A DNA stretch of 64,000 nt from Bacteriovorax sp. BAL6_X (lineage in GTDB: Bacteria; Bdellovibrionota; Bacteriovoracia; Bacteriovoracales; Bacteriovoracaceae): positions 372,001 to 436,000 of the forward strand of contig NZ_AUMC01000003.1 of assembly GCF_000443995.1 (NCBI RefSeq), in the 5' to 3' direction. Both the position numbers and the translations under genes were made by a program. The number at the start of each line of letters is the position of its first letter. The first letter of the stretch is position 1. This document shows, piece by piece, positions 12,272-64,000 of the stretch. The notes beneath the pieces are model-generated. The model was not told the origin of the DNA and searched no databases. It saw only the letters and a program-made list of their open reading frames with translations.

Positions 12272-12411
12272 CAAAGTTCCCCTGTGTTTACAGTGGCATA
12301 TCGACATATTATTATGAAACATTAAAGAAGAGAAATTTAGGTAGTTAAGTGGATAAATTTTCCAATTTAAGTGCCGGAGGTGCCAATTTTATTGGGCTTA
12401 CCCTCCAGTTA

Positions 12412-44548: not shown

Positions 44549-45247
44549 ATGAAAACGCTACAAGAATTTAGACCATCTCATAAAAATGTAATCAGCAACG
44601 GAAAAGCAAAGAAAGTTCGTGTCGCTCGAAAAGTAAGGAAGGGCAAAAAGGGGAGCTCTTCTTTTACTCCTTCTGGTAACCTGACAAATATAGCACTTGC
44701 ACTCTGTGCTGTTCTTATGGGTTTTGGACAATATAAGAAGTCATCTGAAGTAGCTAAGTTAAAAGAGGCGAATGCTTCTTTAACTAAAGAGATTACAGCT
44801 CTTCAAATGAATTCGATGAAATATATGGCAGACAAGAAAATCCAAGAAATTTCAAAAGAAACTTATAAAAGTAAAGTTGCTCACGTGGATTCATTGAATG
44901 CCATTATTGCAAAAAGTAAAGTTGAGCTTGCTAAGGCCAATTTGGAAATTGATAAGCTTAAGAACCTAAAGATGTCTGAGCTACAGTACAAGACTAAGCT
45001 TGCACAAATCGAAAATGAATATCAGAAACGTCTAGATGCGCACAACAGAGCAAGTACTGAAACGATCACTCGCATGGGGCGTAAGATGATGGCCGAAGTT
45101 GATAGTACAAAGACGCGTGAGCCAGCAAGTGCTACACGTCATGTTGTTCAATTTAAAGGAAGTAAGCCTGTGAATGCAAGAGTACTTACTAACCAAAAAA
45201 CTACTATTGAATCAGATGAGTGGCGCTCAAATAATATGGAACTCTAA
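44549..45247 (+). CDS. Membrane-anchored coiled-coil protein
   Basis: The 232-residue protein has a strongly basic N-terminus (AKKVRVARKVRKGKKGS), one membrane segment (LTNIALALCAVLMGFG) and a long coiled coil from about 65 to 170. The C-terminal tail is disordered. The topology suggests a cytoplasmic basic N-terminus and periplasmic coil. It overlaps the convergent 45244-45795 gene end by four bases. No family is recognised. Confidence 0.65.
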   Translation: MKTLQEFRPSHKNVISNGKAKKVRVARKVRKGKKGSSSFTPSGNLTNIALALCAVLMGFGQYKKSSEVAKLKEANASLTKEITALQMNSMKYMADKKIQEISKETYKSKVAHVDSLNAIIAKSKVELAKANLEIDKLKNLKMSELQYKTKLAQIENEYQKRLDAHNRASTETITRMGRKMMAEVDSTKTREPASATRHVVQFKGSKPVNARVLTNQKTTIESDEWRSNNMEL

Positions 45248-45795
45248 TTACTTTCAAATTTTGAAAGAAGTTTCATTGCCATATCCTTTCGATAGGCGAT
45301 ATCGGTCGGGAGTGCTCTGAAGTCAATTTCATGAAGTAAACTCATAAATTTTTTATATCGCTTAGAGAGATCTTCTCGTGTCTTTCCAATAAAGAAGACA
45401 TCGAGAAATGTAATATTATTTCTTGCAATTGAAATTTCTCGCATATTATTAAAGTAAATCGCCATATTCTCAAGATAGAGTAGAGCCGCAATACTTTGCT
45501 CTTCATTAGATGAGCTGTTTTTTAAGTCACGCTCATACAAAGAATATATAAACTCTTCAATCGTTGTAACATCAATTGGTCTTGCAACAGAGATAATTTG
45601 AATGATATCGCGTCTAAGGCATGACTGATACTCTGTCTGTTTATCTTGTTGGATGCACTTGTCGTAATCTATCTTATTAATTCTTTCTTGTGCCACTGAA
45701 GGAACTATAAAGAGGTAAGTTGGAATTGTTATTCCTAAGAATACGACAAATACAACGATAAATTTAATAAAGTCTCTAAGCTTATTTCTTGTCAT
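45244..45795 (-). CDS. Membrane protein coupled to motAB, unknown
   Basis: The 183-residue protein has an N-terminal anchor (FIKFIVVFVVFLGITIPTYLFIV) and a periplasmic helical part with two Cys (DKCIQQ, QSCLRR). I start at ATG 45795, which lies inside motB's last codons; the overlap argues for co-expression with motA and motB. A role in stator function or its control is suggested by context only. Confidence 0.6.
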   Translation of the reverse strand: MTRNKLRDFIKFIVVFVVFLGITIPTYLFIVPSVAQERINKIDYDKCIQQDKQTEYQSCLRRDIIQIISVARPIDVTTIEEFIYSLYERDLKNSSSNEEQSIAALLYLENMAIYFNNMREISIARNNITFLDVFFIGKTREDLSKRYKKFMSLLHEIDFRALPTDIAYRKDMAMKLLSKFESN

Positions 45796-46519
45796 TAAAA
45801 TATATTCCGAATCCAAATTTAATTTTAGATTTTGGATCTTTAGGTTCTACAACTTTGATAATAACTCTTCTATTCGGGTTAAAGAAAATTTTCTCTTTGT
45901 TTTTTTCTTTTAACTTTTCTAGCTCTTCTTTTGTGATAAGAGGCTCAGAGTCGCCCTTTGTAGTGGCCGCAAGTGTAGCCGGAGGAAAACCAAAGTACTC
46001 AAAGCGAGAAAGAACTTTTGCAGCTCTAACTGCTCCTAATTGCCATGGACCTTCGATCCCTGGAGCAATACTTCTTTCATCTGAATCAGTATGTCCTTCA
46101 ATCATAATTCGATAGTTAGGATTCTTTGTTCTGATAATATCAATCATAGTATCAAGTGATTGGATACTACTCTTACTTAACTTAGTACTTCCTTCAGGGA
46201 AGAGGATACTACTTGAAAATGAAATAATTAGCTCATTATCAATGAGTGATATTTTACTATTTTTTTCAAGTTCAGGGTGCTTTGATATCTCTTCTGTTAG
46301 CTCTGATAATTCTGTTTCTGAGCTTTTATATTTGTCCTTTTGAAATGATGTTGAGAGGTCCTTAGCTTTCTTATTGAATCCCACTGGGTCATAATTAGCA
46401 AAGGCCATCATTAGAATGAAGAAGCATGCAATTAGGGTCATCATATCTGCATAGGATGTCATCCAATCGCCATCACTGCCTCCACTATCTTGTTTTACTA
46501 CTTTTTTCTTAACTGCCAT
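45782..46519 (-). CDS. motB: Flagellar motor stator protein MotB
   Basis: MotB anchors the stator to peptidoglycan and carries the proton-binding Asp. The 245-residue protein has one N-terminal membrane segment with DWMTSYADMMTLIACFFILM, where Asp after YA is the ion-binding residue. A C-terminal OmpA-like domain contains MIEGHTDSDE and PNRRVIIKVVE. It lies two bases after motA. Confidence 0.92.
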   Translation of the reverse strand: MAVKKKVVKQDSGGSDGDWMTSYADMMTLIACFFILMMAFANYDPVGFNKKAKDLSTSFQKDKYKSSETELSELTEEISKHPELEKNSKISLIDNELIISFSSSILFPEGSTKLSKSSIQSLDTMIDIIRTKNPNYRIMIEGHTDSDERSIAPGIEGPWQLGAVRAAKVLSRFEYFGFPPATLAATTKGDSEPLITKEELEKLKEKNKEKIFFNPNRRVIIKVVEPKDPKSKIKFGFGIYFNDKK

Positions 46520-46521
46520 TA

Positions 46522-47304
46522 TTAACTCGCCGATTTCCAGTCTAGTCTTTCAGACGGTAAAAGGAATGAGTTTAGCTCTTCTGCCACAAGAACTGGGTTA
46601 GACTTGTCTAGAATATGCTTAATTCCTTCGATAATGATATTATCTTTTGTCTCCATTTGAATTTGGATATCTTCTAAGTTTTCAGCAATTGGAATAAATC
46701 CTAAGTTGGCAATGATAACTCCATAAAGTGTCGTAATAAGACATACACCCATGGCCGGCCCAATCATCTTCATAGCGTCAGCTCCACCGAGGTTGGCAAG
46801 AAGTACGATCATTCCAATTGTTGTTCCCATCATTCCAAATGCCGGAGGAAATTTACCAAGGGTTTTAATCTTTCTTGTATCTTCACTACGAATTGCATGC
46901 ATATTAACAGCGCGTTGCTCGAGAATTTCGATAATCTTCTCTTTTTGCAGGAATCCATCTGCAATTAACTCAAGTCCTTCCTTGAGGAACTCATCATTTG
47001 CTTTACCTGGTAGATTCTCTGCTGCTTCACCTGAACGGTAAGCTTCACAGATTTGCATGATCTCTTTTATCACTTCGGCCGAATTAACCATTTTTCCACC
47101 AAGGAATTGTTTAAGGAAAATCTTAAAAAGTGCACCAATTTTATTTAATTGGAAAGCTACTGATGTAGCAGCGAAAGTTCCACCAATTACAATAAATAGA
47201 GAAGGGCCATCGACAAACAGACCGAGATTACTTGATGACATTCTTAGCCCTGCAAAGAGGACACCGGCCGATATTATTAGTCCAATTAAAGAAAAAATAT
47301 TCAT
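46522..47304 (-). CDS. motA: Flagellar motor stator protein MotA
   Basis: The 260-residue protein has four predicted membrane segments: two near the N-terminus and two late ones, PPAFGMMGTTIGMIVLLANL and MGVCLITTLYGVIIANLGFIP. These carry the residues of the ion channel, with a charged cytoplasmic loop between. AAAGGTG precedes the start. It forms an operon with motB and the small membrane gene. Confidence 0.92.
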   Translation of the reverse strand: MNIFSLIGLIISAGVLFAGLRMSSSNLGLFVDGPSLFIVIGGTFAATSVAFQLNKIGALFKIFLKQFLGGKMVNSAEVIKEIMQICEAYRSGEAAENLPGKANDEFLKEGLELIADGFLQKEKIIEILEQRAVNMHAIRSEDTRKIKTLGKFPPAFGMMGTTIGMIVLLANLGGADAMKMIGPAMGVCLITTLYGVIIANLGFIPIAENLEDIQIQMETKDNIIIEGIKHILDKSNPVLVAEELNSFLLPSERLDWKSAS

Positions 47305-47616
47305 TTATTCACCTTTGTAAATATTCATAACAAAATCTTACTATTTTTAACTACTTAGGTTAACTCTCTAAGAATACAGTCACTTTTTTCCTGTCGTGAA
47401 TTAAAGTTCTTCGAGTATTTTACTCGTCTATGTAGAGGCAACTATGGTTGGCATCGGTACCCAAGACTGAAAAGTTAAAGATTTTACTAATAAACACTGT
47501 TCGGAATAATTTTCCTTTAATTTTAGCAACTTATATTAGTTGTCATTTTGTTTTATGATAAATGTCATATTGCTGTGTGTTATCTTTTTAACAGTTTTAC
47601 AATACTTGGTGTTTAT
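47305..47616. other. Intergenic region, motA to lipoprotein operon (312 bp)
   Basis: These divergent genes are separated by AT-rich sequence holding their promoters. A perfect 6-bp hairpin CGAGTA-TTT-TACTCG lies at 47412-47426. It is followed to about 47475 by a stretch richer in G and C than its surroundings. I see no gene and cannot assign a known riboswitch. Confidence 0.5.
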
Positions 47617-49503
47617 ATGAATAAAGTTTTACTAATTTTTGGTTGTTTTTTACTTTTTGGCTGCGTTGGAAAGGTTGAGGATGCAAATTCTGAACAAACT
47701 AAGGGAATTAATGATGGAGAGACTGTTATTAATTACACGGGAATTCAAGATGCTTTTCCGATAGCTCACGATAAGGTTGAGATCTACTTCCCACCATCTA
47801 ATTTAGACCCATTAAAAGTTACGTATATTATCAACTACGATGGTGCTATCGCGCCAATTACAGTACCGGGTCGAACTCTAGTACCTGATTATCGTGGCTT
47901 TCTTCGTTATACGGTAACTGGTTTAAATATTAATGAACAATATATTTTCAATGTTCAGGCCAAGGATGATAAGGGACAGCAGTCAGTAAATGATGCCTTT
48001 AAATCTGTGACGACATATTCAAACCAGACCGCAAATTTTACAGGAATTGGTAGTATTAAAAATGTATCAGGAGGAGCTTCTAAGAACTCATTGTTAATTG
48101 AATGGCCGGCCGCAGAACGTACTGGTGGTTATATTCCTGAAGACTCAGATGTTTCAAAATATGAAGTTGTGTTAATTAACTCTGATACAGCAACTCCAGT
48201 TGCTTTTGATGATACTTCATTTTCAGCACCAACTCGTATTGTAAATTATGTTGATGGAAAAAAGATTTCTCAACAAGTTAACGGTCTTCTACCTGGAACA
48301 ACTTACTACGTAAGAGTAAGAGGTATTCACCATGGTTTTAGTAAATATAGCTCAGATCCAAGTTACTTTTATGAGAAGAATAATAGTTACTTAAGTGCAA
48401 CGACACTAAGTGATAGTGTAGGTGATATTCAAGTTGATCTAGATTCTTTTGAAGTTACAACACCAAGTAATAGTACTGGTAAAACTTCTCTTGATTTAAG
48501 TTGGGCCACAGGTATTGGTGCTATTGATCACTATCGAATTTATTACAAACAAAATGGTACAGGTGAGGCGTGGTCAACATATAAGAATAGTCGCGATGAT
48601 ATTTGCAATGGCGAGGAAACGACAGATCCTGCTTACTATTGTAAGCAAGTTACATATGAAGATAGTAAATCTAAACTTGTTGAGCTTGAGCCTTATACTT
48701 CTTATGAAGTATATCTTATTATGTGCTTAGATTCTTTATGTTCGCCAGGAAAGTCTATTATTTATAATTCTCCTAGCGTATATCGCACAAGCCCTCCACT
48801 TGTCAGTTTTTCAGGGATTACAGAAATTAATAATCCACGTTACCACTGGGCACTTAACGAAATCTACTTAAGTTATGAACCTGTCGATCTTGCAAGTGGT
48901 GTAATCGATGGGATGTTAATTGAGGTTAAGGGAAGAAGCTCTGGAGAGCCTTATATTGATACATTTATTAACTTTCCGGATGGAAATAATACAACATCAT
49001 TAAATCCATCAACTCTTGATTTTACTAATGGAACAGAAGTTTCAATTAGAGGGATCGATATTAATTCGACAGAAGAATACTGCTTCGCTTTACTGCCTTA
49101 CGTTTACGTTGGAGATGTTGTTACGCCTAATCGTGACTCAGAAGTTGTTAGTTGTATTGTTCCACAAGTAATGACTCCTACATATGAAGACTTTACTGGG
49201 ATTAGTTCACTGTACTTTGACAGTTCGAATAATTCGGCGGCTATTTCTTGGACACCACCAGAAGAAGGTGTGTACGACCGATATGTTGTCTTTATGAAGA
49301 CAACTGCTGGAACTTTTAGTTTCAGTGATGCTGTTAATGGTGACAATGATTACTTAAGATTTGAAGCGGAAGAGAATGCACTTGGTATTACAATTCCTTT
49401 TATTCCTGCTGGGACATATTACTTTGGTGCTCTTACTTACTTGTATCAAGAAGACAAATATTCTGAATTTAATAATAGTATTCAAACACTGGTGGTTGAG
49501 TAG
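47617..49503 (+). CDS. Fn3-repeat lipoprotein (paralogue of the next gene)
   Basis: The true start is ATG 47617 (628 residues), which gives the signal MNKVLLIFGCFLLFGC with a lipobox Cys; upstream in-frame codons look non-coding. The protein is a chain of fibronectin type III-like domains, recognised by repeated GLxPGTTYYVRVRG, LEPYTSYEVYLIMC and IPAGTYYFGALTY segments that close each domain. The mature N-terminus CVGKVEDAN is identical to that of the next gene, three bases downstream, so they arose by duplication. The expected place is the outer membrane, possibly on the surface. Confidence 0.75.
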   Translation: MNKVLLIFGCFLLFGCVGKVEDANSEQTKGINDGETVINYTGIQDAFPIAHDKVEIYFPPSNLDPLKVTYIINYDGAIAPITVPGRTLVPDYRGFLRYTVTGLNINEQYIFNVQAKDDKGQQSVNDAFKSVTTYSNQTANFTGIGSIKNVSGGASKNSLLIEWPAAERTGGYIPEDSDVSKYEVVLINSDTATPVAFDDTSFSAPTRIVNYVDGKKISQQVNGLLPGTTYYVRVRGIHHGFSKYSSDPSYFYEKNNSYLSATTLSDSVGDIQVDLDSFEVTTPSNSTGKTSLDLSWATGIGAIDHYRIYYKQNGTGEAWSTYKNSRDDICNGEETTDPAYYCKQVTYEDSKSKLVELEPYTSYEVYLIMCLDSLCSPGKSIIYNSPSVYRTSPPLVSFSGITEINNPRYHWALNEIYLSYEPVDLASGVIDGMLIEVKGRSSGEPYIDTFINFPDGNNTTSLNPSTLDFTNGTEVSIRGIDINSTEEYCFALLPYVYVGDVVTPNRDSEVVSCIVPQVMTPTYEDFTGISSLYFDSSNNSAAISWTPPEEGVYDRYVVFMKTTAGTFSFSDAVNGDNDYLRFEAEENALGITIPFIPAGTYYFGALTYLYQEDKYSEFNNSIQTLVVE

Positions 49504-49506
49504 CTT

Positions 49507-52500
49507 ATGAAATTTTTATCAATTGTACTTAGTTTATTATTACTTGCCAGTTGTGTTGGAAAAGTAGAAGACGCTAATCTCGAAAATGCAAGAAATGCAG
49601 AGAGTGGACGACAGACTTTTCAGTTTGCAGGTATTTCTAAAGTTATCCCTATTTCAAATGATAAGGCTGAAGTTTACTTCTTTCCTGCAAACGGACCTGC
49701 ATCAGAGTTAACATACCTTATAAAGGTTAACGATGCGACGATTCCTGTTGAAGTTAAAGCAGACTCTTTGACAGTAAATGACGAGGGTATGTATCGTTTT
49801 ACTGTACGTAACTTAAATGTAAATACTGAATATACATTCTCTGTGGGTGTACGTGATGGTAGTACTGGAAGTCAGAGTGAGAATGATGCAACTTTAACGG
49901 CCAGAACATTTTCAAACTATACAGCTGACTTCGCAGGCGTATCAAGTGTCGAACCTCTTGTTGGTGCAGCTGGACAAAATACTGTTCTTGTAAAATGGGT
50001 ACCGGCCGTAACACTTGGGTCGACTTATAATCCAATGCCAAATGATCCAATTGCATATGAAGTTGCTTATATCGCAGCTGATGATGGAACAATTTCAGAT
50101 TTATTCAATAATACACATCCTGCAATTCAAAGAGATCTAAAGCCTGGTGAAGTAACAGCATCAACAGGTGGAACGACTGAAAGAGAAAGACAAGTTACTG
50201 GATTAATGCCAGGTAAGCAGTATTATTTCAGAGTAAGATCTATTCATAAGAGTTATGGAACTTATCAAGATACACAAGGTTACCGCTTTGAGGAAAATAA
50301 TAAAGTTGCTTCAGTTACAACATTAGGCTCAGGTGGGCTTTTTGATTGGGATACACTCTCTCTAAGAGTGTCTACTCCAGACAAAAACTTAGGTTTAACT
50401 TCTATCGATTTAACTTGGGCAGCTGCAGCAGGGCCTTTTGAAAATTATAGAATATATAATTATAAGCTTGGTGAAGCAGAAGAAGATGTTGATCTTGTAA
50501 GGGCAAGAATTCCAGAGGAAATAGATTCTTCAGTTATTGATCCATTAAATTCAGCTGGTGATTATCGTACTGCTGATGCAGATGAATTTTCAAAAAGAAT
50601 AGGAAGTTTGGAGGAGTATGATTACTATCTAACATTTGTAATTGCTTGTCGTACTCTAACTTGTGGTGATGGTGAGAGAATAATTGGAAAGCCAGTTTTC
50701 TATCGTGCTGTACCAAAGCTAGCTTCTTTCTCTGGTATCTTAGGTATTCAGAGTCCTCAAGATATTTCTAGACTTAATGAAATAACAATAAACTTCGATC
50801 CTCCAGTAATTGAAACGGGTTACTTAAATGGATTTGATATTTACTGTTATGAGGGGGAAAGCGATACAAGTCCTACACTTTTGAACTTTAATGTTGCAAA
50901 TGCAAGTGGGAAGGCGGCATGTGATGGGCTCATTAGGATAGATGATAATCCTAGTGATTATACTGGATTTGGCTCTTATACGAATGTACGTATTCAAGGA
51001 AACTTCTTTGGGCCTGGGGATACTGTTGCTGATAAGGAGTATTGTTTTTCAGCTGTTCCTAAAATTTCTGGGAATAATTTTTCATTAAATGATGTTGAAA
51101 ATGCGATTGTAAAATGTATTACTCCAATCGTTAAGGTTCCAACTGTAGAGCAATTTCCAGGTGTTCTAAATGCATGTAATACGGGTGCTGATTATATTAC
51201 TGTTGGTTGGGATGCTCCAACTGGTGGTATTTATGACAAGTATGCTGTTTTCTATAAAGAAAAAGACGGTAAGGTATTTAAGTATACAGATGCACTAGCA
51301 AATGATCCTGCCTATACTCGAGTTGATGATATTGTTGCGACAACATATACGTATACAATCCCTTCTCTTGTTCCTGGAAAGATTTATCAATTTGGTGTTC
51401 TTCCTTATATTGATGGTCCAGACCCTATTTATGCAGATATCAACACTGGATTAGGTGAGTGTAAAATTGAGGTACCGAAACCAAAGTTTGAAGAATGGGT
51501 TGATATTTTTGCAATTGGTCCAAAAGCAAATGGTATGGTTACACCAACGGGACCTGATCGTAATAAAGATTATATTTTAGAAACATTAAACGATAGTGGT
51601 CAACCAATTGAAGTTGAAGTTGATCCCTCAACACTAGCTCCAACAAGTAGTTTTGAAGATCAGTTTGGCGTTGCAAGTGGAAGTACTCAGTTTAGTGGTG
51701 TTTATGGTGCTAAAGATGGAGTGACAACAAACTCTCTCCACCAATATTCAAATTCCGGAATCATTCGTATTGCTTGGAAGGATGTTACTTTTACTAGTGG
51801 TACGCTTTCAATGCAAACATTTATTGATGCCTATGAGACCGGTATGCAAAAGAAAGATCATAAAATTGGATATCGTGTATATCGCTCAGATGATAATAAA
51901 ATCACTTGGAAAGATATCACAAGTGGTGACTTTGATTTCCAAACTCTGACGAATAAAGGTTTAATTCACCCTGCTGATTATACAGAAAGAAGTCGTACTA
52001 ATGAAGTACTTGAAACATATCGTGCCGTGATGTTTACAGACTATTCTGTAAAACATATTCAGGCCGGTGATGACTATAATCACGCTCGTGTTTACTATTA
52101 TAAAGTAGTTCCTGTTTTTAGGGGAGTTGAACTCGAGTATGAAAGAGAGACAACGAATCCTCAGCATATTATTAAGGTTGTTCTACCTCCTGAGAATATG
52201 GCACTTGTTCATAGGCTTATGGCAAACCGTCAGCAATGTCGTGAACTTGGAAAAGTTCACTCAAAAGATATTAGTCAGAAATATACTTGTTCTTGGAATG
52301 GGGTGGGGGCCAGAGGTCTAACATCTCCATGGATTAAAGGATCAACAGTTTATGACTTTGGCCCAAGTATGTTGATTGACCGTTTTGAATTAGGTTGTAA
52401 TTTCACGAGAGGGGATTACGCTTATGAAAAAAGTAACTTTTCTGGAACGATTCCAAACTTTACAGGTTCTAATGATTTAGGTTCTGGTTTTATGGGGTGT

Positions 52501-54666
52501 TTTAACGGTAACGTTCCTAGTTTTACAGCAGGAGCTAATCACCCTAATACTGGAGAGTCTTATACTGATCGAAGCCAACTTCGTGTCGGTGATTGTTTTG
52601 GTGAGGATACTGCTTCAATTGCAATTACAAGTAATGCATGTAGCGATCCAGATACTGCTGATCGAAGAAACTTTATTTCTCCAGGACTTTATGGTGACTT
52701 TACTGATTGTACTGATCCGGCCAATATTGCGAAAAATTTCTTTGATCCTTATGCTGGAAATGGAAGTTACGCTTCTTATAATGTGCAAAGTGAATTTGCA
52801 GCAGTTTACTATTCAAGAAATGCTGTTAAAAGTTATGAAGACCGTATTAGTCATGGTTACTATAGGGGTGCTGGTGGTGCGGCCCTTGCCGATGGTAATA
52901 ACCTAAGAAATAAAAATTACCTTGGGCCATCACGTTGTATGATTAATATTCCTGTATCGGATTCAACTGATGGTGATAAGCTTAAGCCAAGATGGATTGC
53001 TGTAAATAATCTTTCTACTCTTGCTCATGGTGTAGATGATGTTGATATTCTTGATATGTCGATAAATGATGTTCTTGCTAATAATAAGTTATACGATTCA
53101 GGGATTAATGCAGCTCCAAGTCCTACTTATACTAATGTTGATGCATCACCACGTTATCGTGGAAATACAAAATTATCACGTATCTTTTCTTCTAATGATT
53201 CAAAACTTCCTCCACTAACAGGACTTAGCCAGAGTCAGGCAAGTCGTGTGTGTAATTCATATGAGGTAAAGATTGGAACATATGATGATGATGCGGAAGA
53301 ATTTAATCAAATTGGGCCAATAAGAGAAAAGAGGCTTATGCGTCGTGGAGAAGGAGTAACGGCAAGTCGCTATCCTAAAGACTTTGATGAAGCAGCTGTT
53401 GCAGAACTTGAGACAGGAACAAGAAGTGATGCTCCTGTAACAAGTGGTGTGAATTTTGAAAATTCATGTAATGTCTACGATAGAGACGTTGTAAGTGGAG
53501 CAGCGACAAATCAGCAAAGATCAGGTGATCGTCTAATGATCAATATGCCAAGTAGTTACCAAGGAACAGTAACGACGCCGCGTCGTATACCATTTATTTC
53601 TGGTTCAAGCTTCTATGATAATGGCGGAACGCAATTTACGACTCAGGCCTGTACATCACGTTTTGGTGTACAAGATATTATTGGAAATAAGGCCGAAATT
53701 TCATCAGAACAAATCTTTTGTGGTTTTGAAAGTGAAAAGCTAATGCTTGGAGCTGGTCTTGCCTCAAACTCTGTTGAGGCCCCAAATGGTGCTTACTACC
53801 TAAATACGTTAATCTCTTGGGTTATGTCTGATACAGATACTGGCCGTTGTTCATTTGTTGAGCCAGGTGGAGCGAGAGGTGGTAACTATCTTGTTAATGG
53901 TGCTTTTACACCTATTTTCGATCTCTTTGGAAATGTTAATACTGAAGTTGCTGAGTCAGTAAACTCAATTGATCCTGGAAGTGTTAGTTATTATAGAAAT
54001 GGTGACGGCTTCTTCTTGGACTTTGGGCAGGATAACTTTGCACCGAAACTTTCAATTAACGATACTATGGCCCTTAAGTGGGATCAGGATGTTATTGATC
54101 GTGCTCAGGATATTTCAACAGATCCACGTCGTGGACGCTACTTTAATCCAATTATAGGTTTACCTCTAGAATGTCAGGGTAGTTTATGTTCAGAAAGTTT
54201 AGATAATATGTCGATTTCTCTTGATACTTTTGTAACAGACTTTAGTCTCGATGCTTCGACAATGGATATTCCAAATTTCCCTATTGGTGATAGTCAGATT
54301 TTTTCAGATGGGATGTCTGAAACTAGAATTAGTCGTAATGCGTATATGTCTCCATCTTCAAGAGAATATTTTTATGACTTTATCGAGACTGTAGACCCTT
54401 CAACGGACACATATGCCACATATTCAAGTACTCGTGGTGGTGCTCTAAAGTCCTCGCTGGATAATGATGGAACATCTGTTGACTATGTTAGATGGAGTCT
54501 TTCTCGAGACACGCCAATCTATATGCTGAATTTTGGAGAATCAAATACAAAGAGTAGTGGCCGTTATTCAGCAAAGTTTAATGCTAGAAATGATCACGAG
54601 CAGATGAGAACTGAATATTCAGCGGTTAGGTGTGTTGTACGCATCGATGATGAGTCATTTCAATAA
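49507..54666 (+). CDS. Giant lipoprotein with Fn3 array and FGE-like C-terminal domain
   Basis: The 1719-residue lipoprotein (lipobox LLASC) starts CVGKVEDAN like its neighbour and has about five fibronectin III-type repeats in the first ~650 residues. The part from about 900 onward has the pattern of formylglycine-generating-enzyme/C-type lectin-like domains: SQASRVCNSYE near 1240, FGVQDIIGNKAEIS near 1385, GGARGGNYL and the closing SAVRCVVR near 1707. The catalytic Cys pair of true formylglycine enzymes is not evident, so it is probably a binding domain. It is co-transcribed with both neighbours. Confidence 0.7.
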   Translation: MKFLSIVLSLLLLASCVGKVEDANLENARNAESGRQTFQFAGISKVIPISNDKAEVYFFPANGPASELTYLIKVNDATIPVEVKADSLTVNDEGMYRFTVRNLNVNTEYTFSVGVRDGSTGSQSENDATLTARTFSNYTADFAGVSSVEPLVGAAGQNTVLVKWVPAVTLGSTYNPMPNDPIAYEVAYIAADDGTISDLFNNTHPAIQRDLKPGEVTASTGGTTERERQVTGLMPGKQYYFRVRSIHKSYGTYQDTQGYRFEENNKVASVTTLGSGGLFDWDTLSLRVSTPDKNLGLTSIDLTWAAAAGPFENYRIYNYKLGEAEEDVDLVRARIPEEIDSSVIDPLNSAGDYRTADADEFSKRIGSLEEYDYYLTFVIACRTLTCGDGERIIGKPVFYRAVPKLASFSGILGIQSPQDISRLNEITINFDPPVIETGYLNGFDIYCYEGESDTSPTLLNFNVANASGKAACDGLIRIDDNPSDYTGFGSYTNVRIQGNFFGPGDTVADKEYCFSAVPKISGNNFSLNDVENAIVKCITPIVKVPTVEQFPGVLNACNTGADYITVGWDAPTGGIYDKYAVFYKEKDGKVFKYTDALANDPAYTRVDDIVATTYTYTIPSLVPGKIYQFGVLPYIDGPDPIYADINTGLGECKIEVPKPKFEEWVDIFAIGPKANGMVTPTGPDRNKDYILETLNDSGQPIEVEVDPSTLAPTSSFEDQFGVASGSTQFSGVYGAKDGVTTNSLHQYSNSGIIRIAWKDVTFTSGTLSMQTFIDAYETGMQKKDHKIGYRVYRSDDNKITWKDITSGDFDFQTLTNKGLIHPADYTERSRTNEVLETYRAVMFTDYSVKHIQAGDDYNHARVYYYKVVPVFRGVELEYERETTNPQHIIKVVLPPENMALVHRLMANRQQCRELGKVHSKDISQKYTCSWNGVGARGLTSPWIKGSTVYDFGPSMLIDRFELGCNFTRGDYAYEKSNFSGTIPNFTGSNDLGSGFMGCFNGNVPSFTAGANHPNTGESYTDRSQLRVGDCFGEDTASIAITSNACSDPDTADRRNFISPGLYGDFTDCTDPANIAKNFFDPYAGNGSYASYNVQSEFAAVYYSRNAVKSYEDRISHGYYRGAGGAALADGNNLRNKNYLGPSRCMINIPVSDSTDGDKLKPRWIAVNNLSTLAHGVDDVDILDMSINDVLANNKLYDSGINAAPSPTYTNVDASPRYRGNTKLSRIFSSNDSKLPPLTGLSQSQASRVCNSYEVKIGTYDDDAEEFNQIGPIREKRLMRRGEGVTASRYPKDFDEAAVAELETGTRSDAPVTSGVNFENSCNVYDRDVVSGAATNQQRSGDRLMINMPSSYQGTVTTPRRIPFISGSSFYDNGGTQFTTQACTSRFGVQDIIGNKAEISSEQIFCGFESEKLMLGAGLASNSVEAPNGAYYLNTLISWVMSDTDTGRCSFVEPGGARGGNYLVNGAFTPIFDLFGNVNTEVAESVNSIDPGSVSYYRNGDGFFLDFGQDNFAPKLSINDTMALKWDQDVIDRAQDISTDPRRGRYFNPIIGLPLECQGSLCSESLDNMSISLDTFVTDFSLDASTMDIPNFPIGDSQIFSDGMSETRISRNAYMSPSSREYFYDFIETVDPSTDTYATYSSTRGGALKSSLDNDGTSVDYVRWSLSRDTPIYMLNFGESNTKSSGRYSAKFNARNDHEQMRTEYSAVRCVVRIDDESFQ

Positions 54667-54681
54667 AATAAGGTAGAATAA

Positions 54682-57600
54682 ATGAAGAAGTACGTATGGT
54701 TGATCTTATTCTTTTTTACAATTATTTCGTGTACTCCTGTCGAGAAGGCAGAGGAGACTGCTGAGATCTTAAATGATGGAGTCGATGGTACTGTTGAATT
54801 TTCTGTCGTAGGAAATCTCGACCGAGGAGAGTTTCTACTTGGTGGGCTTGGCGATGAAATACTTATAAGAGTAAAAAATAATACTGGTTATAACCTAAGT
54901 GATGCACAACTTTTAATAGATCAAACTTCATCTGCGGGGGTTAAGTTTTTTCCTGATGAAGCTGGTGAGTCAGAAAGCCCTGGTTTTGGTGGGGATTGTG
55001 GACTTATTATTCCTTCTAAAGCAACTTGTTATTATAAGTTGAGATATGAAGCACGAACTTCTGGTATTCATACTCAAGATCTCCAATTTAATTATAAAAC
55101 TCTAATTGATAATTTTTCACAGTCAACACAGTTGAAGTTTTTAACGGGAACTCCAGCATCATTAGTATTTGAAGAGGAGAAAATTAATTATTCATTTGGT
55201 GTTGTTGAAAGAACGGAGCCAAAAGTTTTTACTCAAAGACTTGTTGTTGTTAATACGGGAGAATTAAGGGCCCGCAATATCACAATGACTAAACTTGATA
55301 ACACGACATCAAATGCGATTAGTATTGTTTCAAATACATGTGGAACTGTGCTTTTACAAAATGAAACGTGTGAACTTGTTGTTGAATTTGAGGCTAAAAA
55401 TTATGGTGTAGACGCACCTGATGGTAACGTTGATGTTGATTACAACTCAAATATTAGATTCGATTATGGCCGTGATCCTGAGGGAGGTATTAATGCTCTT
55501 AACGTTTACTTTGATGCCAAATCAATTCGAATTGAAGGAGATATTCAAATTGGTGGTCTTCCTAATTTAAGTTTTGATGACCTTGTCGTAGGTAATATTG
55601 ATACACAAACATTAAAAGTTTCTAATAAAGGATATAAAGAAGCGATTGTTCTTAGTGTTGACATTAGAAATGCATCAAATACGCTTGTTGCACGATGTTT
55701 AAGAGACGATAGCTCTGGGGGAGATAATCTAATCTGTCGTGATCCTTTAGGAGACTTAACAAATAGTTCAAGTAATCTACCTTTAACTATAGTTCCTTTT
55801 AAATTTCTTGATACAAGTAAATGTTTTATCGATGTAAATGATTTTAGCTATGTTCGTGGTGAAGATGGTCGAATAACTAATACAGCATTAAAACAAGTTG
55901 CTGGAAGAACGGTTTCTGATCCAGGCGGTTCTTGTTTCTTTAACGTTACTTTTCATCCTAGTGTGCAGTTTGGAACAGACGGGAGCTTTAATAACTTTCG
56001 CTTTAATGTGCGTTATGATTCAACATGGAAAGATAATGTCGTAATAAAGAACGACCTAGAGTCAGATGAGAATAGCTACGTTGTTGAGGATGCTAATTAT
56101 TTAGCTGCTGCAAAACTAAGCTTTGATGTCATTGAGTATAAGAATACAACATATACTAATACAGATACTGCTGATAATGACTTATTTGATTATGATCTAG
56201 GACGTATCTCACTAATTGCTAACTCAAACTACAAAGAAAGACTTAGAATTAGAGTTAATAATAGTGGTTCGACGTTTGGTGAAGTTGTAAGTGTTACTGA
56301 TGGAGCACAACCTACTCCTAATGCTATTACTGAAACAAGCTATAATATTAATAACTATTATCAAAATATAAAAAATTCTGGATGTGGTTTTCTTAATCCA
56401 TATAATGGCCAGTGTGATATTTTATTTGATCTAAATCCAATTGTATCGACAAACCCTGATAGTACTGCCGCTGAGAATGAAGAAAATTCAGCAATGTATG
56501 ATGTACTAGAGGCATATCCAAATCGTTATAAAATTTTCAGAATCAAGTACAAAGATGGGACTACTTACAATGACGATATGTCTCCACGAACAGATCGTGA
56601 AATAGAGATGAAGATGCGCGGCCTTCTTGTGAGAAAAGGCTTATTATCTTTCTCCGATTATACAATGACAGAAGGTATTACATTTTCTCCTGTTACGGCC
56701 AATGAAACACGCTATTTTCATTTAAAGTTAGAAAATGTTGGTACTGGCGGTATTACTTATATCAACCTCAACACTCCTTTTGTATTTCCTGGAACTTCCT
56801 TTTGGGCCCCAGACTCCAATACTCCTCTATTTGGTGGTGAAATTGTTGATAATCCAAACACAGCCCTTGTGAATGGTGTTGATAAAGATTGTTACAATAT
56901 TATGGATTCTGGTGGTGCTGCAGGGCCAGTTGCTGCGTCTCCTGGGACAAATGCACCTTCTCTTCTTTCTCCTGGAGAAGTTTGTAGTCTAACAATTAAA
57001 TTGGAAAAATTATCAAATGATAAACGTGAAGATAGTTACTACAGTACTAATGATCGTAAATGGCAACGTCATTTTTCGGCTCCTCTAAATGGCTCGCATG
57101 CTCTAAGAGAATATACTAGTGGGATGATGGTTCAAGACATCTTTAATTTTGGATACTTTGATGGAGACGGGATTGCTGATGCTGCAACTGGATATACGCC
57201 TGAATTAGATGGACATGGTGGATTCTATTCGACTCAAGATTACCCTGTTGCAATAAACTCGAGAAGATCTGCGGCGCTTGTTCCTGAAGGAGCACAGCCT
57301 ATGATTAGTGCAATTCTATGGCGTCAGCAGGTTGATATCCCTTCTCACTCACCACTTGCAGGGGAGTGGGGAAAAAGCTTTGGAAGTTATTCTATTCCTG
57401 CTATGTATCGAGATCTTGCTAAGGGAACAGCTGAAGAGCCTATTTCTTATGCTCCGACAAAGTCTATTAATAGAATTGCTCCTTTTAGAGATTCTACATA
57501 TGACTATGTTCTTTATGCGGGTACTTACTATGCTGGAGAGACGGTTTCACTTCCTTTTCAATTATATAATGCAGGAGAAAGACAAGCTTCTTCGTTAGTT

Positions 57601-59673
57601 GAAATGTTAAACGGCGATAGTGAGTTTGCTGTTACAACAATGCCTGGAGCAGTTGGCCAAGCATCTCTGGCAAATATTGAATTAAGCTTTGCTCCGGTAA
57701 CTCAAGGTACTTTTCAAACTGAACTAGAAATTCAATATAGGGACGGATCGCAGACTCTAGTCGATCGTGATTCATATTCTTATACAGATAATATTAAGTC
57801 GCTTCGTATTCTTGTTGTTGCAGAAGCAGTTGCGGCAAATACTGGAAGGATTTCATTAAAGTCTCAAAAGTATACTGTTGAATATGATGAATTAACTTCT
57901 TCTCATACTGAAGCTCTCGATGTGGCCGTAACTGATCATAACCTAGTTATGAATGGCTATGATACTGCAACATCGGTTAGTGTTGAAGCCGTTCGAGGTT
58001 CAAATGTTTATGCAAAAACTCGTCTTGTCTTTACAAATGAAGGGACAACTACTGTTAATAATGTAAAGTTTAATTTAAAGACGTCACTTCTTGGGGCCAT
58101 CCATGATAATAATGGTGCGGGTGTAGGATACTCTCTTGAGTCTGTTAATTGTGGAGCAAGTTTGGCTCCAGGTGCTTCTTGTTTTGCTGATGTAAAGCAT
58201 AAGGCAAGTATCGCAGAGTTACCGCTGACAACTCGTTACGGAATTATTTCATATGATATTGGTTCCGATCAATACTATGCAGAATCTTTTAGAATTCAGT
58301 TTACAGCAGTTGATCCTGCCAAAGTTGCTGCTGGGAATTTAATTACTAATAACATTAGTGACGGATCAGGTGGGACAATTCCAAATGCTTACTTTATTGA
58401 TATTGGAACTTACATAAACCCGGCCCATCCGATACTTTCAACATACCCAAGTGGGTCATTGATTAAAAACATTAATTTAAATAATCCAAGTGATGAGAAA
58501 GCAAGCTTCTTAAAAGAGTATAGGGAGTACGTTGGTAATCAAAGTGCAGTGATTCCTGCGGGAGACTTTCATACAATATACAATCAAGGTTTTATTAAAG
58601 TTGAATTAAATCGACCATGTTTTTATGGTGATGATGAAGATGGCGCCCTTCCAGAAGAAGAATGGGGATTCAACGTGAATACTACTAGTACCTGTACAAT
58701 GAGAGTCACATTCACATTTGATGAGACATACCTTGGGCAGTATGTAGATGAAAGTGAAAACTACGCTATTTTAAAATACTACGATAGTAAAAGGGCATCA
58801 GTTTCTACACTTCCAATTTATGTCAAAGGGTTTATTGAGCCAAACCGTTCAAATGCGATGACGAATGAAATCTTCAATGTTGAAACAGATGATACTGGAA
58901 GAATTTATTTAGAATGGGTTGATTTTACACCAATTAATAATGATTGGGGACCAATCATTTCATATCGAGTTTACTATAGTGAATTTGAAAATAATTTAAA
59001 TGATTTATACAACTCTACTGGTTTAACTTTTGTTGAAACAGCTGGTGTTACACCTAGTGTTGAAATTACAGGGCTTCTGCAAAATAGATTCTACTACTTA
59101 AAAGTTGTTGCTGTTAGAGAAACATCATCTGGTAAACAGTATATTTCTATGCCTAATGGATTCACAACGAAGGAAGTTGTCGTTCCTGACGAGACGGCAA
59201 TTTATGATTATTCGAGAGGACTAATAATTGATAAATTTGCTCTTCCTGAGGGGTCCGGTTCTCCTACTTTCATTACAAAGTCTGAGGCCATTGAAAATTG
59301 TGAAGGAACGACTCGTACAATAAGAAAAATGGGGGGGAATAGAAGTAGAGCAAAAGAGCTTATTGATTTAAATGATTACTACCTAATAAAGGCCGATGAT
59401 ACAAATAGTGACTATCCTTTCTTTGCGTTCCCGCATTGGCTAGCCGATGCTCAAGAGGATATTGCGCCATTATTCCCTGGCTTTAGTTGTGATTTAACAA
59501 ATATGCACAATGAAGAAGATAGTATTATGTATATTAAGAGCTGCGATAATTGTACATGTAATAATTTATCAAAGATTGTTGGAGGGGAAGACTTTCCTCT
59601 TGATACAATCATTTATACTTATGATGACTTTAGTGGTGCAGCTAGATGTCGTGTTTCACAAGATGATTTCTAA
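54682..59673 (+). CDS. Giant lipoprotein with choice-of-anchor/ASH-like repeats and Fn3
   Basis: The 1663-residue lipoprotein has lipobox IISC. Many domains of about 120-150 residues show the choice-of-anchor D/ASH pattern: a strand with FGxV, then LxVxNxG, and a closing Cys pair around CGxxLxxxxxCxxxxxF (for example NTCGTVLLQNETCELVV and NCGASLAPGASCFADV). Such domains are found in cell-surface proteins. A fibronectin III domain lies near 1400-1500, and the last ~150 residues have six Cys and end in AARCRVSQDDF. AAGGTAGAATAA precedes the ATG, 15 bases after the previous stop. Confidence 0.7.
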   Translation: MKKYVWLILFFFTIISCTPVEKAEETAEILNDGVDGTVEFSVVGNLDRGEFLLGGLGDEILIRVKNNTGYNLSDAQLLIDQTSSAGVKFFPDEAGESESPGFGGDCGLIIPSKATCYYKLRYEARTSGIHTQDLQFNYKTLIDNFSQSTQLKFLTGTPASLVFEEEKINYSFGVVERTEPKVFTQRLVVVNTGELRARNITMTKLDNTTSNAISIVSNTCGTVLLQNETCELVVEFEAKNYGVDAPDGNVDVDYNSNIRFDYGRDPEGGINALNVYFDAKSIRIEGDIQIGGLPNLSFDDLVVGNIDTQTLKVSNKGYKEAIVLSVDIRNASNTLVARCLRDDSSGGDNLICRDPLGDLTNSSSNLPLTIVPFKFLDTSKCFIDVNDFSYVRGEDGRITNTALKQVAGRTVSDPGGSCFFNVTFHPSVQFGTDGSFNNFRFNVRYDSTWKDNVVIKNDLESDENSYVVEDANYLAAAKLSFDVIEYKNTTYTNTDTADNDLFDYDLGRISLIANSNYKERLRIRVNNSGSTFGEVVSVTDGAQPTPNAITETSYNINNYYQNIKNSGCGFLNPYNGQCDILFDLNPIVSTNPDSTAAENEENSAMYDVLEAYPNRYKIFRIKYKDGTTYNDDMSPRTDREIEMKMRGLLVRKGLLSFSDYTMTEGITFSPVTANETRYFHLKLENVGTGGITYINLNTPFVFPGTSFWAPDSNTPLFGGEIVDNPNTALVNGVDKDCYNIMDSGGAAGPVAASPGTNAPSLLSPGEVCSLTIKLEKLSNDKREDSYYSTNDRKWQRHFSAPLNGSHALREYTSGMMVQDIFNFGYFDGDGIADAATGYTPELDGHGGFYSTQDYPVAINSRRSAALVPEGAQPMISAILWRQQVDIPSHSPLAGEWGKSFGSYSIPAMYRDLAKGTAEEPISYAPTKSINRIAPFRDSTYDYVLYAGTYYAGETVSLPFQLYNAGERQASSLVEMLNGDSEFAVTTMPGAVGQASLANIELSFAPVTQGTFQTELEIQYRDGSQTLVDRDSYSYTDNIKSLRILVVAEAVAANTGRISLKSQKYTVEYDELTSSHTEALDVAVTDHNLVMNGYDTATSVSVEAVRGSNVYAKTRLVFTNEGTTTVNNVKFNLKTSLLGAIHDNNGAGVGYSLESVNCGASLAPGASCFADVKHKASIAELPLTTRYGIISYDIGSDQYYAESFRIQFTAVDPAKVAAGNLITNNISDGSGGTIPNAYFIDIGTYINPAHPILSTYPSGSLIKNINLNNPSDEKASFLKEYREYVGNQSAVIPAGDFHTIYNQGFIKVELNRPCFYGDDEDGALPEEEWGFNVNTTSTCTMRVTFTFDETYLGQYVDESENYAILKYYDSKRASVSTLPIYVKGFIEPNRSNAMTNEIFNVETDDTGRIYLEWVDFTPINNDWGPIISYRVYYSEFENNLNDLYNSTGLTFVETAGVTPSVEITGLLQNRFYYLKVVAVRETSSGKQYISMPNGFTTKEVVVPDETAIYDYSRGLIIDKFALPEGSGSPTFITKSEAIENCEGTTRTIRKMGGNRSRAKELIDLNDYYLIKADDTNSDYPFFAFPHWLADAQEDIAPLFPGFSCDLTNMHNEEDSIMYIKSCDNCTCNNLSKIVGGEDFPLDTIIYTYDDFSGAARCRVSQDDF

Positions 59674-59738: not shown

Positions 59739-59838
59739 TCTTAACTAAATCTTTATGAAAATCTCAGTAATATCAGGAGTTTCGAGAGGTTTTTGCCCTG
59801 TATTATTTAGTGTTTAGTTAACTTAGAATATTTATGTG

Positions 59839-61248
59839 ATGAATACGTTCTATATTTATATTCTAATATTTTTTCTCCCTTTTTCTTCTTTAGCAGAGGA
59901 AGTAAAGGTTGTTGAAACAGTAACTGTTCAAGAAGAAAAAGAAGAGATCACTCCTTATATGATGATTAGAGTGATTGAATCAAGAGGGATTGATAGGCGT
60001 GACCTTGCTCTCATCCGTAAATCTGCAATGGAAATAGTTCTTGGAACTTCTTCATTTGAAATATTAATGGGAGATAGCTCCGCTGCAATTTATCAAAATA
60101 CTTTTGCACTAGATCTTTCAACGAAGAAAAAAACTAATAATTCGTATGCTATCGATTTTAAAATCTTAGATATTCAAAATGGAAAAACGGTTACTCAAGT
60201 TTTTAAAGATAATGTTGCGAGAAAAAGGTTTCATCTTGAAGTAAGAAAGTTATTGTATGAATTATTCTATGGCGACGGGTCATCAAACTTAAGGCCGTCA
60301 AAGAAAAACCCTAAGAAAAAGAATGCTGAGAAGAAGTTAAGTAATGACATTGTCTCAGCAATAAACTCACTTAAAAATTCTCAAGCTATTAACTCTAATG
60401 CTGTCAGTATTTTCTCTGTTGATGAATCTCCAACTGTTGAGGAGATTGTCGTTGCTGGAGATATTAATAAGATTAATAAAAAGAAAAAAGAAAAAAAGAA
60501 AGAGAAGAAGAAAGAAGAGAAGGTTGAGATTAGTAACTTTAAATCTCCTGATCTAGATCTAAGAATGAATGCGAAACCTGAAAAGGTTGAGGCATCAACT
60601 CTAACATTAATCCCAGATAGCTTCTATGCAATTGGCTACTTAAAAGAAACAACGCTAGCTTCAAATACTCTTAATACAAGTGAAGTAGTCGATACTAGAA
60701 CTAACCTTACAAGTGTGAATCTTACGTATTTAAGTAATTACAAGGTCGAGGAGTGGCAAGAGTACTTCTCTGTTGGTGGTTCATTTTCAAATATTCTTAG
60801 TGAAAACCCTTATGGTATCTCTCCTCGTATGTCTGTTTACGGTGCATATAATAAGCTCCTTCTAGGGGATTCATTTTTCGCTTCAGTAGATGCTGAGTAT
60901 GAACGCATTAGCTTTGCCAATATCAAGGATAGAGGTACAGGGATTACTGGATTTTCTAATAATATATTTTGGTTTGGCTTTGGTTTTAAGTATGTCAGTG
61001 AGCACTTTGCTAAGAAAACAGTTGTGGAAGGGTTCTTTAAAAAGGCACTTATTGGTTCTTCTGATTTAAGTACGACAGGGGACTCTACGCCATTAGATGG
61101 TGATAAATATGTGTTAGATTTTTCAGTTAATTTATATAAAAACTTTGGTCTTGGTGGGTATGTTGAAGTTGTAAATCTTGCCTCAGCAGCTACATCCGCT
61201 TTTGATACTTCTCACCAGATTTTCGGTGTTAGATTAGTTTATAATTAG
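59839..61248 (+). CDS. Outer-membrane barrel protein with periplasmic domain and KE-rich linker
   Basis: The 469-residue protein has a signal peptide (ending SLAEE). Residues about 30-150 have the look of a CsgG/TolB-like alpha/beta domain (IRVIESRGIDRRDLALIRKSAME...NSYAIDFKILDI). A segment near 215-235 is almost only Lys and Glu, a stiff or disordered spacer. From about 255 to the end are alternating strands ending FGVRLVYN, as in an outer-membrane barrel. Start is ATG 59839; a GTG three bases before is possible. It is the first gene of the downstream operon. Confidence 0.65.
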   Translation: MNTFYIYILIFFLPFSSLAEEVKVVETVTVQEEKEEITPYMMIRVIESRGIDRRDLALIRKSAMEIVLGTSSFEILMGDSSAAIYQNTFALDLSTKKKTNNSYAIDFKILDIQNGKTVTQVFKDNVARKRFHLEVRKLLYELFYGDGSSNLRPSKKNPKKKNAEKKLSNDIVSAINSLKNSQAINSNAVSIFSVDESPTVEEIVVAGDINKINKKKKEKKKEKKKEEKVEISNFKSPDLDLRMNAKPEKVEASTLTLIPDSFYAIGYLKETTLASNTLNTSEVVDTRTNLTSVNLTYLSNYKVEEWQEYFSVGGSFSNILSENPYGISPRMSVYGAYNKLLLGDSFFASVDAEYERISFANIKDRGTGITGFSNNIFWFGFGFKYVSEHFAKKTVVEGFFKKALIGSSDLSTTGDSTPLDGDKYVLDFSVNLYKNFGLGGYVEVVNLASAATSAFDTSHQIFGVRLVYN

Positions 61249-61259
61249 GAATTGTTACT

Positions 61260-61802
61260 ATGGATTTTAAGGATAAAATTGAAAGCCTATTCTCTTCAAC
61301 GGAACCTGAAGTAAAACCGATTCAAGAGGAGACACTAATTTATTTTGGTGATAATCAAAGGCAACAAGTTAAAGATTTTTCAATATTTAGTAAGTCATTT
61401 AAGGATCAATCCTTAAAGGCTCTCCAGATCAAGAATGTAGAAATTAAGATCTTAAAAAACTGTTTAGAGAAAGAGTTAATCAACGCATATCTTGTTCAGA
61501 AATTGTTAATTGATGAAATGAAGCTTTTAAAGAAAGTCGTAGGAAATATCAATGGAGTGAAGCTTTATGTCACGCCTAGCTTTATGACTATTCAGCTTTG
61601 TGAAATTGGGAATATCAGAGCATCGTTAAGTAATATTCAAAGTGACATTTTTGGTAGACGTGGTCTTAAGAACCTTGTTGCAATTAGGCTCACTCGAAGT
61701 GTTAAAAAAATGAATTTAGTTTTAAAAGTTAAGTATAAAAATATTGATGAAAAAGATTTTCTACAGTTTAGAAGTCGTGAGGTGATAAATGAAGTTCTTT
61801 GA
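61260..61802 (+). CDS. Cytoplasmic protein in envelope operon, unknown
   Basis: The 180-residue protein lacks a signal peptide and membrane segment. It looks alpha/beta, with helical stretches (LEKELINAYLVQKLLIDEMKLLKKVV) and a later beta part. I recognise no family. It starts 11 bases after the barrel gene and overlaps the next gene by 14 bases, so it is expressed with an envelope system and probably works on its cytoplasmic side. Confidence 0.6.
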   Translation: MDFKDKIESLFSSTEPEVKPIQEETLIYFGDNQRQQVKDFSIFSKSFKDQSLKALQIKNVEIKILKNCLEKELINAYLVQKLLIDEMKLLKKVVGNINGVKLYVTPSFMTIQLCEIGNIRASLSNIQSDIFGRRGLKNLVAIRLTRSVKKMNLVLKVKYKNIDEKDFLQFRSREVINEVL

Positions 61803-62682
61803 TGTTGCAGAAAAAACAAGCCAAAAGGTTGAATTAGATAAAACTGTTAAAAAGACTAAGGTCTTTAAGAATCTTCCAGGTATTGCTCTAGTTGTGATCG
61901 ATGAAAATGACCAAGTAATCAAAGTGAATACTGAGTTCAAAAAAATGTTTAATAATGTAAACCTAAAAGGTGGAAGTTGGGATATTTTCTTTAAGACAAC
62001 ATTTCGTAAAGAGAAGGGACTTGCAGAGACAAGTAATCTTTTCAAGAATTGTAATGATATTCTAAACGATTATATTATTCATACAGCAATGGATGAGTCT
62101 ACTGGTTACCGATATGGTTGGATTTATAAAATTCCAGTTGAAATTATGAATAAGGTTTCTCAAAAGAGAACGGCACTAATGGAGTCGAAGAAACTAGATG
62201 CTTATAATCTAATTGAAGATGAAGTATTTGGTAAGAGACTTAGTTGGATTAATAACAATTTGTCTCTTTCAGATTTTCTATATGCTGATGATTGCGTTCT
62301 TTATTCAAATAGTAATGAAGCTAAGATGTTACTAAAAGACTTTGTAGAGCTTCTGTATGGTGTTTTAAACATGAAAACAGAAGAATCTCATTGCACAGTT
62401 GAATTCTCTAGAGGAAAGAGCGGTTTACAAATTACAGGTGTTTTCTCTAATTTTAATTTCTCGGATGGTGACTTTCAGTCAAATATCAGTTGGCATGGAA
62501 GAAAGATGCGCCTTAATGATATCTGTAAGGTAATGGAATCACGCTTACCTGATCTTTATACATCGATTTATGTAAAGAACTCTAAAGCTGATCATCAATC
62601 AAAACTTAAAATTACTTTAAATGTAAACGATATCGATGGTGTTAGATGGCACGTATCAAGAGGGACTGCAGGTGGTCTTTAA
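61789..62682 (+). CDS. PAS-like protein, possible degenerate sensor
   Basis: The 297-residue protein is cytoplasmic. Residues about 28-75 (LPGIALVVIDENDQVIKVNTEFKKMF) fit a PAS fold. The rest has helices followed by beta strands, recalling a histidine-kinase ATPase region, but without clear H, N or G boxes. The likely class is a regulator, and kinase activity cannot be claimed. It overlaps its upstream gene by 14 bases and the next by 11. Confidence 0.55.
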   Translation: MKFFDVAEKTSQKVELDKTVKKTKVFKNLPGIALVVIDENDQVIKVNTEFKKMFNNVNLKGGSWDIFFKTTFRKEKGLAETSNLFKNCNDILNDYIIHTAMDESTGYRYGWIYKIPVEIMNKVSQKRTALMESKKLDAYNLIEDEVFGKRLSWINNNLSLSDFLYADDCVLYSNSNEAKMLLKDFVELLYGVLNMKTEESHCTVEFSRGKSGLQITGVFSNFNFSDGDFQSNISWHGRKMRLNDICKVMESRLPDLYTSIYVKNSKADHQSKLKITLNVNDIDGVRWHVSRGTAGGL

Positions 62683-63900: not shown

Positions 63901-64000
63901 TGAAGAAGTTGGTATTTATCTCATTACTACTACTTTCTTCTGCGGCTATTTCAAATCCCAAAATGAATGTCCTGCCAAGTCTTGAGTGGCAAAAGAATGA
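63900..64000 (+). CDS. N-terminus of another exported protein (partial)
   Basis: The ATG at 63900 shares its A with the preceding TAA and follows AAGGAGG. The first 33 codons show a signal peptide (MKKLVFISLLLLSSAAIS) and continue past the window edge. It belongs to the same operon as the PEGA gene. Confidence 0.7.
   Translation, partial: MKKLVFISLLLLSSAAISNPKMNVLPSLEWQKN

Follow-up and report, generated by a model that had tools for sequence, protein, structure and literature searches.

A candidate non-flagellar motor locus encoding lipoproteins with a predicted non-catalytic FGE-like module in Bacteriovoracaceae

Overview of the locus

Two adjacent lipoprotein genes of a Bacteriovoracaceae (Bdellovibrionota) genome, here called SHORT and LONG, are flanked on the left by divergent MotA-MotB genes and on the right by a FliF-FliG-like gene, which lies across the right edge of the window, i.e. 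the whole stretch of 64,000 nucleotides analysed (contig C3:372001-436000 of a genome 99.98% complete). LONG is predicted to end in a module of the FGE/C-type-lectin fold from which the active-site cysteine pair of FGE is missing. We give roughly even credence to the reading that SHORT, LONG and a third lipoprotein, HYD, serve as non-enzymatic surface or outer-membrane parts of a rotary motor that is not flagellar and may drive gliding or prey attachment. The reading draws on lipoprotein form, fold, the missing active site, gene order, co-inheritance and FliF/FliG homology, all as judged from sequence.

The features of the cluster are listed in Table 1. The lipoprotein genes are transcribed divergently from MotAB. 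From SHORT to the PEGA/TPR gene, all on the + strand, the spacings between successive genes range from -47 to 162 bases. Other flagellar genes (export apparatus, rod, hook, filament) were not recognised among the cluster genes of the window by Pfam or NCBIfam models. Upstream of 47617, an Rfam search at gathering thresholds returned only the tRNA and no riboswitch or other structured RNA; the 5' region gave two sub-threshold eukaryotic Rfam matches and a folding z-score of -0.47. Promoter-like sites were not above those of shuffled sequence, and terminator-like sites were about equal to shuffles.

Table 1. Features of the lipoprotein and motor cluster (positions within the window)
Feature	Position	Strand	Basis
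190-aa membrane protein after MotB; few relatives have one, membership uncertain	45244..45816	-	
MotB of the cluster: plug, TM with channel Asp in YAD, OmpA-type peptidoglycan-binding domain	45782..46519	-	
MotA of the cluster: flagellar-type stator A subunit	46522..47304	-	family models
SHORT: signal/lipobox, Fn3 array, without FGE module	47617..49503	+	ORF, Pfam, BLASTP, tree
LONG: signal/lipobox, Fn3 array (residues 1-655), linker, C-terminal FGE-like module	49507..54666	+	
Predicted FGE/C-type-lectin-fold module of LONG (residues ~858-1719)	52078..54663	+	profile, model, structure alignment
HYD (third lipoprotein): choice-of-anchor-D/HYDIN-type Ig repeats, one Fn3, probably degenerate FGE-like end	54682..59673	+	
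470-aa secreted protein: charged middle, probable C-terminal outer-membrane barrel; conserved in the cluster	59836..61248	+	sequence reading
180-aa protein; similar-sized gene at the matching place in close relatives	61260..61802	+	
297-aa protein, weakly PAS-like; relatives' forms longer (~500-600 aa), membrane-anchored	61789..62682	+	
218-aa secreted protein, probable small outer-membrane barrel; conserved in the cluster	62636..63292	+	sequence reading
198-aa secreted PEGA + TPR protein	63304..63900	+	
Start of 707-aa FliF(RBM3)-TM-FliG-like fusion; runs on to C3:438023 beyond the window	63899..64000	+	

SHORT and LONG are paralogous lipoproteins

SHORT comprises 628 aa when read from its ATG, or 651 aa if translation began at a TTG at 47548, and LONG 1719 aa; 3 bases separate the two ORFs. 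Each carries a lipobox, and in both the mature part starts with CVGKVEDAN at residue 16. In a BLASTP alignment of 649 columns the two proteins are 33% identical (290 bits, E 3e-93), a likeness far beyond chance, and Pfam fn3 was found in SHORT (E 7.9e-19, 4 stretches) as well as in LONG (E 5.8e-21, 3 stretches). Thus, the original prediction of lipoprotein paralogues with a common start, a three-base spacing and a shared Fn3 array was borne out by the ORF coordinates, lipoboxes and alignment. The lipobox pattern was present in 43 of the 44 SHORT, LONG and HYD proteins examined, the 44th having TNSC, which the pattern misses.

The part by which LONG exceeds SHORT amounts to ~1,060 residues. It had been described as about 1,000 gained residues with FGE-like motifs; the motifs held up in the family, and the FGE-like stretch is real, but the module itself spans residues ~858-1719 and residues ~660-857 form a separate stretch. 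The word "gained" was not supported. A quick maximum-likelihood tree with midpoint root was made from 40 Fn3 arrays. In it the 14 SHORT copies formed one group (SH-aLRT 98) beside 16 LONG copies, and the 10 outer rows across the root all bear the FGE module (one of these, L095, is cut by a contig end just after the start of the module). Since all 10 outer rows bear the module, loss of the tip in SHORT is simpler than its gain in LONG. The tree therefore suggests, as moderate evidence, that duplication of a long form followed by tip loss in SHORT is the simplest history.

The C-terminal module of LONG has a predicted FGE/C-type-lectin fold

As a single sequence, the C-terminus of LONG matched nothing in Pfam or PDB, and a family profile was therefore needed. 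With the profile built from residues 856-1719, the loci fetched from family genomes yielded 42 ORFs. Of these, 24 matched PF03781 (best E 1.1e-8), the window protein itself being unmatched. LONG carries an insert, at roughly profile positions 160-340, which is absent from compact members of the family. Compared with PDB, the family profile gave PorK/GldK, SUMF2, PvdO and FGE as top matches, all of them weak (E 0.008-0.2).

An AlphaFold model of residues 851-1719 (m523fe757e565) had a mean pLDDT of 70.3 and a pTM of 0.81. Foldseek alone found no significant match to this model in PDB (best E 0.22), so the fold assignment rests on a second look with VIA-align together with the profile evidence. 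VIA-align placed TaqVP first (Z 16.6, 275 residues, 4.3 A), further matches being MTD (Z 12.7), PorK (12.6), CarF (12.1), FGE (12.0) and TvpA (12.0). Among the matches listed, all those with Z of at least 9 belonged to the FGE, DGR-variable-protein, PorK, CarF, ToxD or EgtB group, and the sole one outside the FGE-type fold group had Z 3.9. The fold prediction, named beforehand as the point on which the FGE/C-type-lectin proposal depended, thus came out in its favour.

The active-site pair of human FGE, C336 and C341, lies five residues apart and shortly before the final GFRC. LONG is free of Cys over the 45 residues that precede its final RC, and a C-x4-C pair at the active-site place is absent from every member of the module family inspected, in agreement with the earlier expectation that LONG would lack the pair. 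The fold and the missing pair together indicate a module of the FGE/C-type-lectin fold without FGE chemistry.

The last ~130 residues of HYD (LIIDKF ... GAARCRV) resemble a degenerate FGE-like end, sub-threshold in the window copy. Such an end is clear in the HYD homologues of L085, L087 and L182 (L-numbers denote loci and G-numbers genomes, G000 being that of the window). HYD therefore probably ends in a degenerate FGE-like module.

Further proteins of this kind are encoded elsewhere in the genome. A compact FGE-module paralogue of 1546 aa (L038:3959-8599, G000:C8), of a type present in many genomes of the family, lies on another contig away from motor genes; it adjoins a ParA-like ATPase of ~290 aa, similarly in L046 and L064, and a fibre with an endosialidase-chaperone domain is also beside it. 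A 406-aa ORF at G000:C10:617654-618268 gave a clear FGE-sulfatase match (65.8 bits) and, by sequence, is a conventional FGE-family protein.

Stator and rotor-like proteins of the cluster

The MotA of the cluster matched PomA/MotP/MotA models at 3.2e-41 and weaker and TolQ at only 0.004, which places it in the flagellar class as far as family models tell. With its plug and OmpA domains and channel Asp (motif present in 25/26), MotB likewise has the features of a flagellar stator. The strongest MotA_ExbB match of the genome lies in a locus that looks like Tol-Pal.

We read the 707-aa protein as a FliF-FliG fusion in the inner membrane on the basis of profile and predicted fold. A profile of 17 rotor homologues, searched against all PDB sequences with E up to 10, retrieved four sequences only, namely FliG three times (1.8e-8, 2.1e-4 and 0.018) and FliF (0.12). 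Against the flagellar FliG of relatives, hhalign gave E 1.4e-5 over 234 columns. Among 24 rotor homologues, Pfam gave MgtE_N in 13, FliG_C in 3 and FliG_N in 2, with weak E-values. The structure model is that of the L074 homologue, not of the window's copy (mean pLDDT 73, pTM 0.39). Its residues 16-177 matched FliF RBM3 (Z 10.3) and residues 316-615 matched FliG (Z 9.9), the match to the isolated FliG C-domain covering 89/89 residues at Z 9.3 and 2.6 A; the middle stretch, with a predicted membrane helix, was hardly covered by the structure search. Here also Foldseek alone gave no significant match in PDB (best E 0.009), so the assignment rests on the VIA-align second look and the profile evidence. 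The torque-helix charges of FliG were sought by a regular expression, which found no match.

The cluster thus resembles the flagellar motor in its MotA and in the FliF/FliG homology of its rotor. It differs in that the FliF and FliG parts are fused, with a single RBM-like domain, and in that the remaining flagellar genes were not recognised in it, while elsewhere the genome encodes both a conventional FliG and a further MotA. In another family of the phylum (L187, G042:C11), MotA lies beside an ORF of ~740-759 aa with a FliG_C match (E 5.6e-10); from these matches it is an independent pair of MotA and a FliG-domain protein.

Co-inheritance and linkage of lipoprotein and motor genes

Co-inheritance was followed in 58 genomes, 36 of them in the family and the window's own genome included, with cut-offs of >300 bits for the cluster MotA clade and >150 bits for the PEGA/TPR protein. 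The two markers identified the identical 14 of the 36 family genomes. LONG-type proteins occurred in 11 of these 14 (12 with profile search) and in no others; the cluster-positive G019 and G027 of this set had no LONG match beside the cluster, and G021 had one by profile only. In G041, of a more distant family, such a MotA was found at 326 bits with a weaker TPR match. The whole set was absent from all five sister species of the genus, two or three of these genomes being incomplete. Class-wide, the cluster MotA clade (E up to 1e-60) was present in 47 of 129 genomes.

Across the phylum the rotor was found in 31 of 192 genomes, and in 14 of these 31 an FGE-module gene lay within 20 kb of it, as against 0.73 expected at random. 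The corresponding P of 8e-17 is not to be taken literally, for the calculation ignores shared ancestry and contig breaks, and shared ancestry inflates the co-occurrence as well as the proximity numbers. Gene order varies. In the window's genome, L033/L126 and L069/L184, the lipoproteins fill the space between the rotor and a MotAB far to its left; in L083, L084 and L127 MotAB is close to the rotor; and L182 has nearly everything in one same-strand run (LONG-HYD-MotA-MotB-354 aa-TPR-rotor). The order has been rearranged, yet the cluster stays together, which is stronger than mere inherited order.

Paralogous sets of PEGA/TPR protein, MotA, MotB, a rotor-like protein of ~550 aa and a small barrel were observed in L133, L136, L138, L142 and others, with giant lipoproteins of NHL repeats (L133, L136) or RCC1 repeats (L142) beside them. 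This pattern is suggestive only, because genes of more than 900 aa are common here. As the paralogous clusters carry other giant lipoproteins, or none that was resolved, such clusters can do without the FGE lipoprotein.

A possible machine and its alternatives

In the reading we prefer, SHORT, LONG and HYD belong to one conserved cluster with MotAB, the fusion rotor, the periplasmic PEGA/TPR protein and the two probable barrels. MotAB would most likely turn or drag a FliF-FliG-like ring in the inner membrane, and the force would pass through the periplasmic and barrel proteins to SHORT, LONG and HYD. The non-catalytic module of LONG would then be used for binding, either with ligands on prey or surfaces as its targets or with partners docking on it as on PorK/GldK, and the output would be surface movement (gliding) or forceful attachment. 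We infer here that a single machine is assembled, that the lipoproteins are exposed at the surface, that force is coupled to them and that gliding or prey attachment is served. More tentatively, and as a possibility we rather doubt, there may be a Bdellovibrionota-wide class of such machines, in which MotAB-driven FliF-FliG rings, barrels and PEGA/TPR proteins would be combined with interchangeable giant lipoproteins bearing FGE/lectin, NHL or RCC1 tips.

The FGE, Fn3 and HYDIN-type lipoproteins could instead scaffold a non-flagellar motor as a ring or disc on the periplasmic side, under the outer membrane and with no outside ligand. PorK/GldK, which are non-catalytic FGE-fold docking hubs (PMC12421860), rank high among both the fold and the profile matches, and SHORT, LONG and HYD are all built of scaffold-typical repeats; however, no relative of PorN/GldN, PorL or PorM was recognised among the cluster genes by Pfam or NCBIfam, and the Fn3 arrays, together with the NHL and RCC1 propellers beside paralogous clusters, fit display proteins at least equally well. 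We hold this periplasmic arrangement to be improbable, though worth serious consideration. It is unlikely that SHORT, LONG and HYD are ordinary prey- or surface-binding lipoproteins and that the co-inherited MotAB and FliF-FliG-like genes drive something else. FGE/C-type-lectin folds are common as ligand binders, giant genes are common in the window and the compact paralogue beside the ParA-like ATPase implies that the module can work without this motor, but the lipoprotein genes co-occur tightly with the motor genes, they lie between those for stator and rotor, and L182 has a single run, all of which speaks for a link.

Two further readings have very little to recommend them. Catalytic activity of the formylglycine-generating or a related kind (sulfatase activation, or an EgtB- or PvdO-like reaction) would agree with the fold and with PF03781 in over half of the module family, but the window protein falls short of the Pfam model, and LONG was rejected as an FGE enzyme on account of the missing cysteine pair; we consider such activity extremely improbable. 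A variable protein of a diversity-generating retroelement, with targeted hypervariation of its C-terminal lectin fold, would suit the best fold matches, TaqVP and then MTD. However, a search with PF00078 at E up to 10 detected no reverse transcriptase in the nearly complete genome, which makes a diversity-generating system unlikely; the link to such systems drawn in the original prediction found no support, LONG was rejected as a DGR variable protein, and we give this reading hardly any credence.

Comparison with known systems

PorK/GldK of type IX secretion and Bacteroidota gliding are, like LONG, lipoproteins with a non-catalytic FGE fold. Lipoproteins of the FGE fold that work with a motor are thus already known: PorK/GldK are outer-membrane lipoproteins in which the FGE fold has been repurposed as a docking hub without catalysis (PMC12421860), and GldK has covalent, force-bearing links (PMC12635249), a precedent for an FGE-fold lipoprotein as a force-bearing element. 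PorK/GldK work with the ion-driven motor PorLM/GldLM and the partner PorN/GldN, whereas the cluster has MotAB and the FliF-FliG-like fusion; LONG also exceeds them greatly in size and has an Fn3 array and inserts. In Myxococcus, the AglRQS-Glt system is an ion-driven gliding motor linked to outer-membrane barrels, TPR proteins and lipoproteins. AglRS belongs to a TolQR-like generic class (PMC12505986), in contrast to the flagellar-type MotA of the cluster. No Glt model matched among the cluster genes, and weak homologues could escape such models.

The DGR proteins TaqVP, MTD and TvpA share the C-type-lectin/FGE fold with the LONG module; LONG differs from them as a lipoprotein with an Fn3 array in a genome with no detected reverse transcriptase. 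FGE, SUMF2, PvdO, EgtB and CarF share with the LONG family the fold and motifs (FG.QD..GN.xE and a G.RC end), and differ from LONG, which lacks the active-site pair and has the context of a giant lipoprotein. In the literature searched, coverage of which was incomplete and did not include subscription papers or preprints, we found no description of a FliF-FliG fusion in a non-flagellar cluster, nor of a non-flagellar MotAB and fused FliF-FliG locus linked to FGE-fold lipoproteins.

The locus is therefore a candidate new surface machine driven by a motor, and it lets one test whether stator and rotor parts of flagellar type are in use without a flagellum. Its genes are concrete candidates for deletion in a related predatory family, to which the named strain Bacteriovorax sp. 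BSW11_IV (L070) belongs. It would be the second case, after PorK/GldK, of a repurposed FGE fold beside an ion-driven motor, and the non-flagellar machine class, if true, would provide the motor and adhesins that gliding or prey attachment still lack.

Other giant genes of the window

At the left end of the window, two adjacent giant ORFs (4572-8147 and 8144-12322) both lie on the - strand. The ORF at 8144-12322 has a C-terminal endosialidase-chaperone (Peptidase_S74) domain and a weak match to the N-domain of mosaic adhesive trimer fibres (Bdello_MAT_N, E 0.03), and the pair is probably a MAT-type fibre.
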